From positions 1-24,738 of the IMG/VR virus record IMGVR_UViG_3300042924_004093: a DNA stretch of 24,738 nt. One strand, given 5' to 3'. How positions within the stretch are numbered: position 1 is the first letter of the stretch; each line of letters begins with the position of its first letter. The DNA comes from a virus. Shown piece by piece: positions 5,152 to 22,296 of the stretch. The notes below the pieces were generated by a model. It made no database searches and was not told where the DNA came from. It saw only the letters and a program-made list of their open reading frames with translations. A program made the position numbers and the translations under genes.

Positions 5152-6039
5152 TTGAATAGAAGAAACTTCTTGGGACTATCTATCATGGCGTGTGGTTCCG
5201 TTATATTCGCCAACAATTTACTTGGTAATATACTCAATTCTACCGATACTTCCAAACCATTTTTTACTGCAACTTGGATAGGTCACTCCACAGTTTTGTT
5301 GAATATAGATGGGACAACTATACTCACCGACCCAGTTATGTTCAATCGAATTGGAGTATACGTTCTCGGAACTACAATCGGAATACCAAGATATACCAAA
5401 CCAGCAATTCCAATTGAACAACTACCAAAGATTGACATTGTTCTCATATCTCATGCCCACATAGACCACATGGATTTAGAAACTCTAAATTGGCTAACGG
5501 AACATAATCCAAAAGGAATTCATTGTATCACTGCAAAGAATACATCAGACATAATCAATGACTTGGAATGGAAGTCTCTAACAGAGTTAGATTGGAATGA
5601 CTCAATCTGTATAAACAATGTAACCATAACAGGAAAACAAGTTCTTCACAATGGTTGGAGATTACCGGGTGAGAAATGTAGACGAGATGGTCATATAAAA
5701 ACGGGTAGAAGTTATAACGGATATGTCATAGAACGAAATGGTTTGAAGATTGCATTTGGTGGAGATACCGCATACACAAAATCATTTCAGGAATTTGGAA
5801 ATACAGATGTGTCAATTATGCCAATCGGTGCATATCAAGGTTATTCGGATAATCATTGTACACCAGAAGAAGCACTTCAAATGACAAAGATGATGAAGTC
5901 ACCAGTCATTTTACCGATTCATTTTGGAACATTCCATCAAAGTTCAGAACCAATATGGGAACCAATACATCGTTTGATGAAGTACACCGATGGTATTGAA
6001 ATAGTTGGAACGAAGATAGGTTATAGATTCAAAATCTAA
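5152..6039 (+). CDS. MBL-fold hydrolase, NAPE-PLD/UlaG-like, with export signal
   Basis: The 295-residue product is a metallo-beta-lactamase-fold hydrolase of the Lactamase_B_2 type. It shows WIGHSTVLL (42-50), LTDPV (58-62), the metal motif SHAHIDH (H101, H103, D105, H106), a further His near 166, GGDTAY (D205), MPIGAYQGYSDNHCTPEEAL and PIHFGTF (H257). The order and the GAY...H.xPEEA...H.GTF block match N-acylphosphatidylethanolamine phospholipase D relatives. The start MNRRNFLGLSIMACG looks like a twin-arginine signal (RRxFLG) with a hydrophobic stretch, so export is likely; IMAC is a poor lipobox. The start codon is TTG with GGGAG seven bases upstream and a stop just above it. It is the only gene on this strand and overlaps the next gene tail-to-tail by 4 bp, which suggests an independently acquired cargo gene. 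Confidence 0.88.
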   Translation: MNRRNFLGLSIMACGSVIFANNLLGNILNSTDTSKPFFTATWIGHSTVLLNIDGTTILTDPVMFNRIGVYVLGTTIGIPRYTKPAIPIEQLPKIDIVLISHAHIDHMDLETLNWLTEHNPKGIHCITAKNTSDIINDLEWKSLTELDWNDSICINNVTITGKQVLHNGWRLPGEKCRRDGHIKTGRSYNGYVIERNGLKIAFGGDTAYTKSFQEFGNTDVSIMPIGAYQGYSDNHCTPEEALQMTKMMKSPVILPIHFGTFHQSSEPIWEPIHRLMKYTDGIEIVGTKIGYRFKI

Positions 6040-11043: not shown

Positions 11044-11538
11044 TTACCAAGATGAAGAATAATAATAGTCAACCCATGAGTCGGGATTCTTTGCATCCTC
11101 GTCCATCTCTGTAAGAACATCGGAAACAATTTGTTTTGTCAATTCCAAATCTTCCCAATACCAAGAATCAATGTTGGTTGAACCAAAAAAGAAACCTTCT
11201 GTTGGTTGAAGATTCTCTTCAATTACCGAAGATTCTTCGGGAGTTCCCTTTGCATTTAGAACAAGGTTTATAGTTTCGAGAAGATTCTCAAAGTCCTGAC
11301 GTGAGACACTATATTCTCTACAATCATCTTCACCGTTCTGAACATTATCAACAAACCAATTATGAATTTGGTTTGCCTTACGCCAATAACCTACGTGTTC
11401 TGAAATTGAACGTACTCGGTTAAAATTGATATTGACAGGTGAACCCTTGATTGTAATATCAATCTTACCAGATACACCACGATGTTCGTAATTCGCACCA
11501 ATATATGTCTTTTTGGTGAGATACATATCGAGACCCAT
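11044..11538 (-). CDS. Conserved phage protein (MGLDMYL family)
   Basis: The 164-residue product begins MGLDMYLTKKTYIG and contains YWRKANQIHNWF in the middle, the two hallmarks of a protein family found in many phages and some bacteria, with no established function. A strand-rich insert (GKIDITIKGSPVNINFNRV) lies between them. The acidic C-terminus WVDYYYSSSW closes the protein. The start has AAGGAC before ATG. A class 1 promoter (11574-11605) and the hairpin/DnaA-box block lie upstream; SWIM, basic and TIYDWKE genes follow in the same unit. Confidence 0.85.
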   Translation of the reverse strand: MGLDMYLTKKTYIGANYEHRGVSGKIDITIKGSPVNINFNRVRSISEHVGYWRKANQIHNWFVDNVQNGEDDCREYSVSRQDFENLLETINLVLNAKGTPEESSVIEENLQPTEGFFFGSTNIDSWYWEDLELTKQIVSDVLTEMDEDAKNPDSWVDYYYSSSW

Positions 11539-11573
11539 TGTCTTGTCCTTGAAGTGTTAGAAAACTTGATATA

Positions 11574-11605
11574 CAAAACTACGGAGGTTTGAGGACATTT
11601 CCAAA
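11574..11605 (-). promoter_or_regulatory. Class 1 promoter for the MGLDMYL operon
   Basis: TTTGGAA (11599-11605) is followed after 17 bp by TAGTTTTG (11574-11581), an exact match to the Bacteroidota -7 consensus TAnnTTTG. A DnaA-box 9-mer lies 13 bp upstream of the -33 element. Confidence 0.75.
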
Positions 11606-11618
11606 CAAAAAATGTAGG

Positions 11619-11627
11619 TGTGGATAA
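11619..11627 (-). promoter_or_regulatory. Perfect DnaA-box 9-mer (TTATCCACA), copy 1
   Basis: The minus strand reads TTATCCACA. It lies between the stem-loop at 11633-11657 and the class 1 promoter. The preceding AAAAAG and the stem-loop are shared with copy 2 at 14292-14300, so a whole module is repeated. It could bind DnaA or another factor. Confidence 0.5.
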
Positions 11628-11632
11628 CTTTT

Positions 11633-11657
11633 TAAGTCCTTATAAATCAAGGACTTA
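11633..11657 (-). repeat. Stem-loop repeat, copy 3 (next to DnaA box)
   Basis: On the minus strand TAAGTCCTT-GATTTAT-AAGGACTTA forms a perfect 9-bp stem with a 7-nt loop. It is followed by AAAAG and TTATCCACA. Confidence 0.85.
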
Positions 11658-11682
11658 CGAAGGGTGGGAGTTTCTGTCTCCG

Positions 11683-11707
11683 TAAGTCCTTGAAAATAAA
11701 GGAGTTA
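11683..11707 (-). repeat. Stem-loop repeat, copy 2
   Basis: On the minus strand TAACTCCTT-TATTTTC-AAGGACTTA; one stem position is mismatched. The loop TATTTTC is identical to that of copy 4 at 14306-14330. Confidence 0.8.
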
Positions 11708-11708
11708 G

Positions 11709-11733
11709 TAAGTCGTTGATTTATAAGGACTTA
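11709..11733 (-). repeat. Stem-loop repeat, copy 1
   Basis: On the minus strand TAAGTCCTT-ATAAATC-AACGACTTA; one stem position is mismatched. It starts 8 bp after the 3' end of tRNA-Ser and one base separates it from copy 2. Together copies 1-3 probably end or process the tRNA transcript. Confidence 0.8.
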
Positions 11734-11741
11734 CGTTGATG

Positions 11742-11826
11742 CGGAGGGTGACAGAGTTGAACTGCCTCGTGTTTGACCACGGCTACGGTTTAGCAAACCG
11801 ACCCCTTACCGTTCGGGCAACCCTCC
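11742..11826 (-). tRNA. tRNA-Ser (anticodon GCT)
   Basis: An 85-nt tRNA with acceptor GGAGGGT pairing with ACCCTCC, discriminator G, anticodon loop TTGCTAA, a long variable arm and the T-loop GTTCAACTC. It reads AGC and AGT codons. CCA is not encoded. It is the last gene of the unit that begins at 13054. Confidence 0.92.
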
Positions 11827-13131: not shown

Positions 13132-14220
13132 TTATTCATATGATTCACGGTCGATTTGGATAGCCACACCGAATCGTGGAATACCATCGGGAGTTTCTTG
13201 GAAATACTTGATAGTAGCCGTCTTACCAATCAACTTCTTACGGTTCTCCAATACCGAACGAACCCATTGACGTGAACCACGAAGTGTTGCACCGAATGTA
13301 CGACCATCACCAAGTTCAAGAATCAAATTACCAGCAGTACCTGCACGGTTTCCCTTACCTTCTTCAACATCAACAATAGTAAACTCACCATCGTAAAAGT
13401 CCTTCTTCTTCAAAAGTTGCTTTGAACGTTTGTTCTCATACGGTGCAATATCTACACGAATGATTGAACCTTCGTAACCTTCTTCGAGGAATTGTTCGTG
13501 GTACTTTTGGATGTCTTCTTCTGAATGAACTTGGTATGTAGGTACAACCTTTATCATCTTGTTCTTCAAGGACTTTACCACCTTCTTCAATTCAGCATAC
13601 CGTTCAGAGAATACACCATCGTGTTCAGGTAAATCGTATGCCCAAAACTCCATAATAGATTGACATTCTTCAATATCTTCTTCCGTTGGTTTTGTCTTCT
13701 TCACGAGTGAAACAATCTTGTTGAAGTCATCACTATAATCGTGTGCGTACAATTCACCGTCGAGAATCGTAACATCTTGTGTCAAGTGGTCAACCGTAAC
13801 AAACGGCTTACCATTACGTGACATCATCGTACCATCAGAATTGATACAACGGAGACCGTCCAACTTTGGTTGAATAAAGGTAGGATTGACAAAACATAGG
13901 TCTGAATACTTCTCATACTTTTGTGCCAACATTGGTTCAAAAAACTTCTTTGTCTTTGTGAGTTTCTCATTGTAACCCTTGTCTAACTTCTTTTGGAATT
14001 TTGATTGTGCTTCACGGAGAGCTTGTTCGGATGCGGTTGTTTCATTAGAACGACCGATGTTCTTACCGATACAAACCGTTGGTTCCGACTTTGTTAGTTT
14101 ACCACCCTTGACACCTTCGATAGTCCAAAACTTGTTGTTATGAACTTCGATAGTCCACTCTTGAACAAGACCACGAGAATCGTACTTGTAAACCGTTGGG
14201 AATGTTGTTTTGTTAGCCAC
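13132..14220 (-). CDS. ATP-dependent DNA ligase
   Basis: The 362-residue product seals nicks in DNA using ATP. The nucleotidyltransferase core shows motif I QPKLDGLR with catalytic Lys about 119, motif III ILDGEL (about 152-157), motif IV GYEGSIIR (about 248-255) and motif V LLKKKDF (about 269-275). The OB domain after it ends in KTATIKYFQETPDGIPRFG. An N-terminal domain of about 90 residues (EWTIEVHNNKFWTIEGVKGG) resembles the WGR-type region seen in some phage ligases. The start is the GTG at 14220 with CAAGG seven bases upstream. The open frame runs up to 14259 but there it overlaps the -10 element, so those residues are not translated. Confidence 0.95.
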   Translation of the reverse strand: MANKTTFPTVYKYDSRGLVQEWTIEVHNNKFWTIEGVKGGKLTKSEPTVCIGKNIGRSNETTASEQALREAQSKFQKKLDKGYNEKLTKTKKFFEPMLAQKYEKYSDLCFVNPTFIQPKLDGLRCINSDGTMMSRNGKPFVTVDHLTQDVTILDGELYAHDYSDDFNKIVSLVKKTKPTEEDIEECQSIMEFWAYDLPEHDGVFSERYAELKKVVKSLKNKMIKVVPTYQVHSEEDIQKYHEQFLEEGYEGSIIRVDIAPYENKRSKQLLKKKDFYDGEFTIVDVEEGKGNRAGTAGNLILELGDGRTFGATLRGSRQWVRSVLENRKKLIGKTATIKYFQETPDGIPRFGVAIQIDRESYE

Positions 14221-14256
14221 GACGAAACCTTGATGTATGTGAATTTTCAGACAATA

Positions 14257-14288
14257 CAAACCTACGGAATTTTTCTGTAATTTCCAAA
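14257..14288 (-). promoter_or_regulatory. Class 1 promoter for DNA ligase
   Basis: TTTGGAA (14282-14288) is followed after 17 bp by TAGGTTTG (14257-14264), again an exact TAnnTTTG. A DnaA-box 9-mer lies 3 bp upstream of the -33 element. Confidence 0.75.
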
Positions 14289-14291
14289 CGA

Positions 14292-14300
14292 TGTGGATAA
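14292..14300 (-). promoter_or_regulatory. Perfect DnaA-box 9-mer (TTATCCACA), copy 2
   Basis: Same arrangement as copy 1: stem-loop, AAAAAG, TTATCCACA, class 1 promoter. The distance to the -33 element is 3 bp here and 13 bp at copy 1, a difference of 10 bp or one helical turn. Confidence 0.5.
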
Positions 14301-14305
14301 CTTTT

Positions 14306-14330
14306 TAAGTCCTTGAAAATAAAGGACTTA
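14306..14330 (-). repeat. Stem-loop repeat, copy 4
   Basis: On the minus strand TAAGTCCTT-TATTTTC-AAGGACTTA, a perfect 9-bp stem. Its first three bases are the stop codon of the gene at 14328-14927, so it marks the end of that transcript. Confidence 0.85.
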
Positions 14331-14927
14331 CTTCTTGTAGAGAATGTTGTTTATGGAAAAAGCCATACGTCCAAAGTTAGTTTCTGGGATAAGAGACCCT
14401 TCAAACATGAATGGAGTTGGATTACCACCACGAAGATTTGAGTATGCTTGAGCAATCTTGCCGATTGAGAAGTCTGTTCCAATCTTTGTTGAATCACCGT
14501 TCTTGAAGTAAAGATGAACACCTTCACCTTGAAGTCCGATAATTACGGCATCTTGATTGAACTTCTTTGCAATATCTACACACATCTTTGTAAACTCTTC
14601 ACGAGGAGTTGATTCAGGACGAACAAAAAGAACACTTTCTTCTGTAATATCTTGGAGTTGTTCAGGACTTGCATCCTTCCAATCTGTTCCATCAGGAGCT
14701 TCTTGCCAATGTCCTACCAACATATAACCGCCCATTTTCTTACCTTGTAACATATTGAATAGTTCCTTGTTACGTTGGCGATTTTGCTTCTTTGTGAAAT
14801 TTGAGCGGAACGCGGTAGCAATACAAAAATCCTTGTTTTGCACCATTGATACAAGACGTGATAAACTGGCTTCACTAATTGTTCCGAACTCTGTTAGAGA
14901 TTCTGATACTATATCCTTCAACTTCAT
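14328..14927 (-). CDS. DUF3293-like protein with capsid-targeting-like leader
   Basis: The 199-residue product starts MKLKDIVSESLTEFGTISEAS, with two L/I/V-x-E-[S/A] sites (VSE|S at 7-10, ISE|A at 18-21). These resemble the sites cut by T4-type prohead protease in packaged internal proteins. The body, IATAFRSNFTKKQNRQRNKE, then YMLVGHWQEAPDG and SVLFVRPESTPREEF..AKKFNQDAVIIG, follows the DUF3293 pattern. The relative at 6036-6446 lacks the leader. The ATG is set by ACGGAG six bases upstream. Both promoter classes overlap upstream. Function of the body is unknown. Confidence 0.8.
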   Translation of the reverse strand: MKLKDIVSESLTEFGTISEASLSRLVSMVQNKDFCIATAFRSNFTKKQNRQRNKELFNMLQGKKMGGYMLVGHWQEAPDGTDWKDASPEQLQDITEESVLFVRPESTPREEFTKMCVDIAKKFNQDAVIIGLQGEGVHLYFKNGDSTKIGTDFSIGKIAQAYSNLRGGNPTPFMFEGSLIPETNFGRMAFSINNILYKK

Positions 14928-19647: not shown

Positions 19648-20433
19648 TTATGATTGTATTTCATGTTCCCATTTGAAAAAATTTCCTTCGATTCCGTTTT
19701 TGTATTGTTTACCATAAAGATGTAGTCTGAATCCACTAGGGTCTATGTTGAATATTTTCCCCCATTCTGTTGCGGTTTTTCTTTGTCCAATATATTCACC
19801 AATAATACATATGGCATACCCTTTGAATTTTGGATTTTTTTCCCCCACACATACACCACGTTCTTTACGAGTTTGATTCGCCTTTTCAATACTTTCTCGT
19901 GATACTTTTTTGCCTTTGTGCTTCTCGCCTATTTTTCTTTTAGTGTCTTCCGTGTGTTTCCGACCAAATGCAGCATGGTTTTTACCCGTTTTACCAAACC
20001 AATAATTATTTTCACCAGACTTTTTTCCAATGTTATTTTCTGATATTTTTCTACGAGTTTCCGGTGAATGTTGTTTTCCCCACATGACATTACCTTCACC
20101 ACTTCTGGATTCACTCATTTTTTTTCTACTCATTTCACTATGATTTCTTCCAGAAAATAGCGCACCACCAGTTGAAAAATTATTTGCATTGTAGAATATT
20201 GGATCATTACCAGCATCATAATAATTTAACCAATATTCTTCTCTTTCTATCAATTCTTCTTTGGATGAACACGATTCAATTATTTTCTTCTCGAAATTAT
20301 GTTTACCATATTTTCTGATTGCTCGCTTCAAGAAAAGTCCAGATCCAAGATATTTTGGATTATTTTTACTATCTCTACCAATATACTTCTTACCATTGAT
20401 GAGATTCGTAGTCATATAAATAACCATAACCAT
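19648..20433 (-). CDS. GIY-YIG homing endonuclease with NUMOD3 repeats
   Basis: The 261-residue product begins with a GIY-YIG nuclease domain: VIYMTTNLINGKKYIGR (4-20, the first motif reads VIY), then a catalytic Glu in EREEYWL (about 66). Three NUMOD3 DNA-binding repeats follow: GRNHSEMSRKKMSE, GKQHSPETRRKISE and GRKHTEDTKRKIGE. A C-terminal KTATEWGKIFNIDPSGFRLH looks like a helix-turn-helix (NUMOD1/IENR-like). It is more A+T-rich than its neighbours, which fits recent arrival. It sits 6 bp after ribonucleotide reductase with its own AAGGA site and is free-standing, not in an intron. It probably cuts RNR-region DNA of rival phages. Confidence 0.93.
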   Translation of the reverse strand: MVMVIYMTTNLINGKKYIGRDSKNNPKYLGSGLFLKRAIRKYGKHNFEKKIIESCSSKEELIEREEYWLNYYDAGNDPIFYNANNFSTGGALFSGRNHSEMSRKKMSESRSGEGNVMWGKQHSPETRRKISENNIGKKSGENNYWFGKTGKNHAAFGRKHTEDTKRKIGEKHKGKKVSRESIEKANQTRKERGVCVGEKNPKFKGYAICIIGEYIGQRKTATEWGKIFNIDPSGFRLHLYGKQYKNGIEGNFFKWEHEIQS

Positions 20434-20439
20434 TTGTCC

Positions 20440-22296
20440 TTATTTTATTTCACAAGCACCACCTGCACAGGCAAGTTCACCCGTTAGGTCGGTGTTGTCA
20501 TCAAGTTCAACAACCTTTGATAAATCAACATCGTGTAGAGTTTGCATTAGTTGGTCATACTTTTCTTTTGTGATGTCTTCAAATGGAGCCTGAATATATG
20601 TTCCACCATCATAAGGAAGAACTGAAAGTCCATTGAAGTGTTCTTTATTTTCCCACATCCAATTACCGACCGCATCCCATTCGTGTTCACGGATAGATAC
20701 CGTTGCCGAAATGTTGTGTGTGTTCATTCCATTCTTGTGACCTGGTTTTATCCAATTTTGATTGAACCACTTTACACGTTCAAGAAGTTGGAGTGGTGAT
20801 TCTGTTCGCATAATCGCGTTAGATGGTGCCTTTTGTGGGACACCGATAACTGCGGTATCGTGTGGACGGAAGTATTCGTCTTCAACCAATTCAGGGTGGT
20901 TGATTGCAAGGTGAGTATAGATTGCCTCGTTCTTACCAACACGAACACGGCGGAGGTAATAGTCATTGTGCCAAGCGTGAATACCTGATGAACAACCAAG
21001 TGTTAGTGATGAAGTTCCAGCTGGCTTGATTGTTGTGATACGGGCAGCTTTGTTGATACCGAGGATTCCAGCCAATCTTTCGTTTTCTTCCTTTGCAACT
21101 TTTGTTGCGGCCTTTACATCCAACTTCTGAACAACACCTGAACCAATACCTGTCATACCAACTCCAAGAAGAGCATCCTTCTCTGTTGTTCTTTGCCAGA
21201 TTGGACGGAGGTAATGAAAATCTGTATATCCCGCCTGTAAAGTTCCGATGAATGTTGCTGCACGAACTCGGTCTTCCAAATCTTGTTGGTCTACTACGTC
21301 TGAAACATTTACTTCACAAAGATTACAGAATTGGAATGGACGAAGTGCAATTTCACAACAAGGGTTTGTTCCCCAATCCTTATCGTTTGAAAGATAGATT
21401 CCTGGTTCACCCGCATTTGAAAGTTCAATCTTCTTCCACAATTCTTTGAAGAACTCTTCACTTACTTTACTACGGAGTAATACCGCCGAGTTATTTGCAC
21501 GTCCACGTTGAGGATTCAATTCCCACCAAGCACCAAACTTACAGGAAATCATCTCATCGTCATCGGCAGAGAAAAGTGAGATAAGAGCTGCACGACGAAT
21601 ACCACCGGCAAGAACTGCATCTGCAATATGACAAACAATATCGTGAACTTCAATTGGTGATAACTTGTCTCCGTCTTTCTTGAGGTCAAGGATAGAACGA
21701 ATTTTCTCAACACAGATACGAAGTGGTTCTGCACCAGGAGCTTTACCGCCCGATGTTATAAGACGAGCACCCTTTGGACGGATGTCTGAATAATCAAAAC
21801 GAAGTGATGAACCACTCGTGAAGTATGACTTTACAAGGGCTTTGATTGCATCAGCCCAACCTTCAATAGAGTCTGACACAAGGTATCTTCTTTCGCGGTC
21901 TGACTTTGGTTTCCGAATTTCAGGGAGTTTCTCAACGTGATGTTTCTGAACAGAATAACCTACACCTGTTCCACCGAGAAGAAGGAACATCACTTCACCG
22001 AAAGCACGCCAGTCATCAATAGGTAGATACGCACAGTTGTAGATACGGTTCGGTGAAATTTCAATTGGCTTACCGCCGAATTGAAGTGAACGCATTGAAG
22101 GAAGAACTTTCTTATCATAGACAAACTTATAGACATTTTCAATCTCGTCTTTTAGTTGTGGGTATTTCTTTTGGTGCATTTCTTTATTTCGTGTCACCAA
22201 CTCTTCCCAAGTTTCCCGACGATTGAGTTCAGGTATGAAACGAGAATACTTCATATAAACCGTAATATCCGAAAGGATTCGGTTGCTAATATCCAT
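20440..22296 (-). CDS. nrdJ: Ribonucleotide reductase, class II (adenosylcobalamin-dependent)
   Basis: The 618-residue product makes deoxyribonucleotides and needs vitamin B12 coenzyme, so it works with or without oxygen. RIYNCAYL holds one active-site Cys (C88), NPCCEIAL the radical Cys and Glu (C313, E315), and FCNLCEVN the partner Cys (C324); GGTGVGYSVQ (about 108-117) and KPAGTSS are also typical. The C-terminus ACAGGACEIK gives the CxxxxC pair reduced by thioredoxin. The length is that of the short monomeric form, without an ATP-cone. CGGAG precedes ATG. The thioredoxin at 7840-8091 may recycle it; the host or medium must supply B12. Confidence 0.95.
   Translation of the reverse strand: MDISNRILSDITVYMKYSRFIPELNRRETWEELVTRNKEMHQKKYPQLKDEIENVYKFVYDKKVLPSMRSLQFGGKPIEISPNRIYNCAYLPIDDWRAFGEVMFLLLGGTGVGYSVQKHHVEKLPEIRKPKSDRERRYLVSDSIEGWADAIKALVKSYFTSGSSLRFDYSDIRPKGARLITSGGKAPGAEPLRICVEKIRSILDLKKDGDKLSPIEVHDIVCHIADAVLAGGIRRAALISLFSADDDEMISCKFGAWWELNPQRGRANNSAVLLRSKVSEEFFKELWKKIELSNAGEPGIYLSNDKDWGTNPCCEIALRPFQFCNLCEVNVSDVVDQQDLEDRVRAATFIGTLQAGYTDFHYLRPIWQRTTEKDALLGVGMTGIGSGVVQKLDVKAATKVAKEENERLAGILGINKAARITTIKPAGTSSLTLGCSSGIHAWHNDYYLRRVRVGKNEAIYTHLAINHPELVEDEYFRPHDTAVIGVPQKAPSNAIMRTESPLQLLERVKWFNQNWIKPGHKNGMNTHNISATVSIREHEWDAVGNWMWENKEHFNGLSVLPYDGGTYIQAPFEDITKEKYDQLMQTLHDVDLSKVVELDDNTDLTGELACAGGACEIK

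Follow-up and report, generated by a model that had tools for sequence, protein, structure and literature searches.

T4-type phages reportedly carry mobile regulatory cassettes, known as PeMob or PeSL (promoter early stem-loop). They are compared here through a citing paper (PMC4503421). The block at 11574-11733 of our window, the whole stretch of 24,738 nucleotides of viral DNA that was analysed, resembles them: it is a short gene-junction cassette in a T4-like phage, it combines a stem-loop-like repeat with a predicted promoter, it is repeated in one genome, and several phages have it in common although the genes next to it differ. It differs from those cassettes in having a Bacteroidota-type promoter and a fixed DnaA-type box, and in a palindrome that is conserved by sequence, lacks a U-tract on the sense strand and does not have the make-up of a terminator stem-loop. 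We read the cassette as functioning in the way that PeMob/PeSL elements do in T4-type phages.

The cassette has a recurring anatomy and fixed registers, occurs repeatedly and is shared among phages with differing neighbour genes. The block is probably a regulatory cassette that a T4-like phage carries at gene junctions and that is portable, passing between phages beside different genes. This would be a promoter-carrying exchange cassette in a phage other than the enterobacterial T4 phages, and its box, of the host-initiator type, has a fixed register; such a box would couple the expression of exchanged phage genes to a host replication protein.

Two cassettes and their registers

An earlier note on the window had placed three stem-loop repeats, an exact DnaA 9-mer and a promoter after a tRNA-Ser gene. 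The palindromes, the box and the promoter were all found there, on the minus strand, the promoter beginning within the interval the note had given and finishing outside it. Read along that strand, tRNA-Ser(GCT) (11741-11826) lies 7 nt from the outer palindrome, palindrome 3 (11709-11733, TAAGTCCTT-ATAAATC-AACGACTTA), which is set 1 nt from palindrome 2 (11683-11707, TAACTCCTT-TATTTTC-AAGGACTTA), a step of 26 nt. A 25-nt spacer (11658-11682) separates palindromes 2 and 1, giving a 50-nt step that is kept in relatives, and palindrome 1 occupies 11633-11657 (TAAGTCCTT-GATTTAT-AAGGACTTA). All three have 9-bp arms and 7-nt centres, so the repeats stand as 9-7-9 palindromes, but only the copy at 11633-11657 has perfect arms, the other two carrying one arm mismatch each. 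Three such palindromes in 135 nt stand well above chance, since simulated sequence gave 0.01. After a gap of 5 nt, AAAAG, comes the DnaA-type box, an exact TTATCCACA at 11619-11627 on the minus strand, centred about -54 from the predicted start, and 13 nt further on the -33 element of a promoter, TTTG-N20-TAGTTTTG (11605-11574, minus strand), with a predicted start near 11569. The next gene is an ORF of 164 aa (phrog_7971, 11044-11538, minus strand), a region that is not alike in the relative G036.

The window holds a second complete cassette at 14257-14330, absent from the earlier note, with one palindrome and its own box and promoter, again on the minus strand. Its palindrome (14306-14330) is a perfect 9-7-9 and opens with the triplet TAA (14330-14328), where the upstream ORF stops; this ORF is of the S-adenosylmethionine lyase family (14328-14927, minus strand). 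The same 5-nt AAAAG gap leads to an exact TTATCCACA at 14292-14300, centred at about -44, and after 3 nt to the promoter TTTG-N20-TAGGTTTG (14257-14288), with a predicted start near 14252. Downstream lies an ATP-dependent DNA ligase (13132-14220, minus strand). The ligase ORF is listed from a TTG at 14259, a position within the cassette promoter, and translation more likely begins at the GTG at 14220. The two exact boxes of the window, against 0.38 in simulated sequence, stand in the identical register to their palindromes. Elsewhere in the window, a metallo-beta-lactamase-fold ORF (5152-6039) lies on the plus strand, opposite to nearly all other genes. A GIY-YIG/NUMOD3 endonuclease ORF (19648-20433) adjoins a ribonucleotide reductase ORF (20440-22296) and is possibly a homing gene.

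The registers are kept in relatives. Among the contigs bearing palindrome, box and promoter, drawn from two viral scans, 14 pairs showed an offset of 30 nt from palindrome start to exact box and two showed 31 nt; the few remaining distances were mostly those of outer palindromes within these arrays, and the opposite orientation did not occur. Alignment of 12 copies left TAAGTCCTT, TAAAAAGTT(A/T)TCCACA and TA..TTTGT invariant, while the loop, the linker from box to promoter and the outer flanks varied, and a match to the promoter consensus was kept in all 12 as a predicted promoter. The gap from box to -33 element falls into two classes, 3-4 or 12-15 nt, which lie 10 nt, or one helical turn, apart and put the box centre at -44 or -54 from the predicted start; two further copies (L422 and L423) have a gap of 13 nt. 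Exact boxes lie within the module in 13 of 16 cases in 186 kb of family contigs, and other contigs contain 17 in 571 kb. Steps of 26 and 50 nt are seen again in the arrays of G036 (twice) and G051, and in G036, in G035 and in one copy of G051 the first triplet of the palindrome also closes a long open frame. One module, in G037 (from 8554), is inverted relative to the nearby promoter, which counts against the proposed cassette.

In a second contig family (L317-L347), which lacks the palindrome, AGTTATCCACA precedes a TTTG-N21-TACCTTTG promoter by 13 nt; the phage collection gave no match to it. Another locus, L316 of G055, carries four exact copies of TTATCCACA inside about 140 nt.

Neighbouring genes and proposed exchange

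The module is found beside unlike genes. The 30-kb contig G034, which carries several copies, has alignments with the window that total 423 nt, and those listed are the cassettes. The homology of G036 and G051 to the window ends at 11733/11734, the outer edge of palindrome 3, and between array and tRNA-Ser both have long open frames, of 484 and 556 codons, that do not align to each other; a promoter-like sequence follows tRNA-Ser ahead of this slot gene. At the locus of cassette 2, the relative G048 retains a promoter but has no intact palindrome and box. The module is absent from polymerase relatives of up to 177 kb, and named phages and plasmids gave no full match to the composite cassette or to the second contig family with box and promoter.

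In the arrangement that we propose, the upstream gene has one or three 25-bp palindromes at its 3′ end, followed by the 5-nt gap, the box and a promoter that would drive the next gene. The palindromes, which are probably bound by a protein, would mark the gene junction and insulate it, and another protein, sitting on the box at -54 or -44 and so on a single helix face, would aid RNA polymerase. Cassettes may spread through ordinary phage homologous recombination between the conserved short stretches, so that genes could be swapped, each keeping its own promoter.

Termination, the box and the promoter

The earlier note had suggested that the block might end the tRNA transcript. A terminator of the tRNA-Ser transcript or of the upstream gene would suit a position immediately past the 3′ ends of both tRNA-Ser and the SAM lyase ORF, an array stretch of 151 nt that folds at -43.7 kcal/mol (z -6.9), and the U-tract seen at 28 of 41 distinct bacterial sites 3′ of tRNA genes. 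However, single stems are weak and partly broken (-9.8, -3.0, -2.7 and -8.8 kcal/mol). None of the copies in the window is followed by a U-tract on the sense strand, and the GC-rich stem with U-tract of an intrinsic terminator was not found on that strand; the only terminator-like match of the scan in the cassettes, at 14306-14330, is on the plus strand, against the gene direction. In G036 and G051, moreover, tRNA-Ser and the array lie on either side of a gene that has a promoter-like sequence of its own, and termination of the tRNA transcript thus loses ground; a terminator is unlikely here. A comparison with known RNA families gave nothing but tRNAs above the gathering score.

Stems had also been described as kept while loops vary, and this was taken as selection on the folded form. 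The loops do vary, but among the 12 module copies no pair shows a compensatory change, a further point against a terminator, and departures are mostly unpaired. With one of three stems perfect, selection on the fold is not borne out. Hairpin selection was likewise rejected in the wider viral set, from a pattern search confined to one arm consensus, where the variable bases of the arms are identical in 5 of 143 cases against 23 expected, which is below chance. Judged from these comparisons, arm sequence, rather than pairing, is conserved.

An operator array, which the earlier note had also proposed, would account for such arms. A phage or host dimeric regulator would bind the 9-7-9 arms, leave the 7-bp centre free and control the adjacent promoter, and the box would belong to the same regulator complex. 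The strict centre length of 7, arms conserved in sequence and not in pairing, and the retention of the 26- and 50-nt steps in relatives are consistent with this, as is the finding in other phages of outward sigma-70-like promoters within 150 nt of 118/331 sites, compared with 165/1655 controls. On the other hand, no candidate regulator was identified, the orthologous promoter in G048 persists without the palindrome, and the same site is found 3′ of bacterial tRNA genes. We regard an operator array as possible but somewhat doubtful, and prefer the junction cassette.

The exact DnaA 9-mer of the earlier note is confirmed, and its exact match, its conservation and its phasing with the promoter support a bound factor. 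Host DnaA is the simplest candidate for that factor, plausible from the sequence. The cassette resembles DnaA-regulated promoters in having an exact DnaA box, here a putative DnaA site, upstream of a promoter with helical phasing, and differs from them in that its box adjoins a palindrome.

T4-type origins are known to use promoters. The block had also been proposed as a phage origin, at which the box would recruit DnaA and the nearby promoter open or prime the duplex; an exact DnaA-type 9-mer, whose register is also occupied by the variants TTTTCCACA and TTATCCCCA, fits that idea. Against it, the box is present in two copies in 24.7 kb and the module in several in G034, which does not suit a unique origin; each copy has a single exact box, and no DnaA-box cluster was found at either locus in the window. 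GC skew, for which the note had suggested a check over the whole genome, is mostly negative across this genome fragment and has no turn at 11.6 kb. The polymerase relatives of up to 177 kb that lack the module count against an origin as well. We consider this explanation very unlikely.

The consensus of Bacteroidota -33/-7 promoters is TTTG/TANNTTTG (PMC6847099), and both promoters of the window fit the Bacteroidota sigma-ABfr pattern, with TTTG and TANNTTTG about 19-21 nt apart. The class 1 promoter of the earlier note is present as a prediction, but its type is Bacteroidota -33/-7 (TTTG-N20-TANNTTTG) and not sigma-70. The -7 elements in the window have a G after TA, which is unusual and almost absent in Flavobacterium promoters (PMC6847099). 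Promoter type by itself suggests a Bacteroidota host, in which the cassette promoter would be active. Against such a host, the named phage closest in DNA polymerase (65%) is Microcystis phage Mel-JY01, whose listed host is a cyanobacterium, although it too carries some TTTG-N20-TANNTTTG sites.

The palindrome in other phages and in bacteria

The exact 9-7-9 pattern occurs in 69 viral stretches and 102 genome stretches. Chance palindromes were rejected as a source, as one shuffled-arm control gave 1 viral stretch and a 6-nt centre gave 0. The palindrome is a very specific site, spread over unrelated phages. Most of the other phages that bear it lack the box, so palindrome and box may have separate roles. 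In many phages two sites are set 50-53 nt apart around a GC-rich spacer, and such pairs are grouped in local arrays. In L061, L234, L236, L244, L194, L088 and others the pair reads TAAACCCTT-N7-AAGGACTTA, a 28-nt GC-rich spacer and TAAGTGCTT-N7-AACGACTTA, and these pairs form local arrays that lie among the small genes of large phages, with the upstream partner exactly 53 nt away in 108 of about 170 cases.

In bacteria, 59 sites were counted on the 3′ side of a tRNA gene, in almost every case no more than 40 nt away, and none on the 5′ side; the count includes some loci repeating the same site. Loci with the palindrome just past the 3′ end of a tRNA gene (L074-L175) come from Spirochaetota, Planctomycetota, Alphaproteobacteria and others, often with a tyrosine integrase gene alongside. 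An integrase lies near 17 of 48 bacterial sites, a count weighted by one Spirochaetaceae tRNA-Asp lineage, with Pfam confirmation in four.

These neighbourhoods recall tyrosine integrase att cores and integron attC sites, which the palindrome resembles in its inverted arms and fixed 7-nt centre, in the tRNA and integrase setting of the bacterial copies and in the paired sites of phage arrays; the phages examined had no integrase, and the likeness is one of geometry and neighbourhood. A site-specific recombination site with 9-bp arms and a 7-bp overlap, moving gene cassettes, would explain that arm-spacer-arm geometry, the bacterial copies that often lie between a tRNA gene and an integrase gene, the local arrays of other phages and the break in homology at the palindrome edge. 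Yet a PF00589 integrase was found in 0 of 26 site-bearing viral records, weak evidence because many of these records, indeed most, are fragments. The centres differ between copies within one phage, and the sharing is explained by ordinary homologous recombination. Site-specific recombination is very unlikely as the way in which the cassettes move.

A wider role, in which the palindrome, single or paired at 50-53 nt, would be a candidate protein site with which many unrelated phages assemble arrays of exchangeable single-gene cassettes, and which also serves integrative elements at bacterial tRNA genes, seems to us decidedly unlikely. The palindrome is nevertheless a defined, searchable motif with strict spacing, and its occurrence in unrelated phages and beside tRNA genes makes seeking its reader protein a direct experiment. 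A literature search on the arm sequences returned unrelated papers only.

Two further candidates were rejected. A general tie to TAA stop codons showed no enrichment in the viral set (4.4% against 4.8% of control TAA triplets), and a dispersed bacterial repeat does not match the one to five loose copies of most bacterial genomes tested. Palindrome copies in Calothrix are part of a longer repeat. At viral loci including L029, L058, L061 and L193, a sigma-54-like TGGCA-N6-TTGC lies near the palindromes, directed outward in 16 and inward in 37 of 331 sites, compared with 12 and 17 of 1655 controls.
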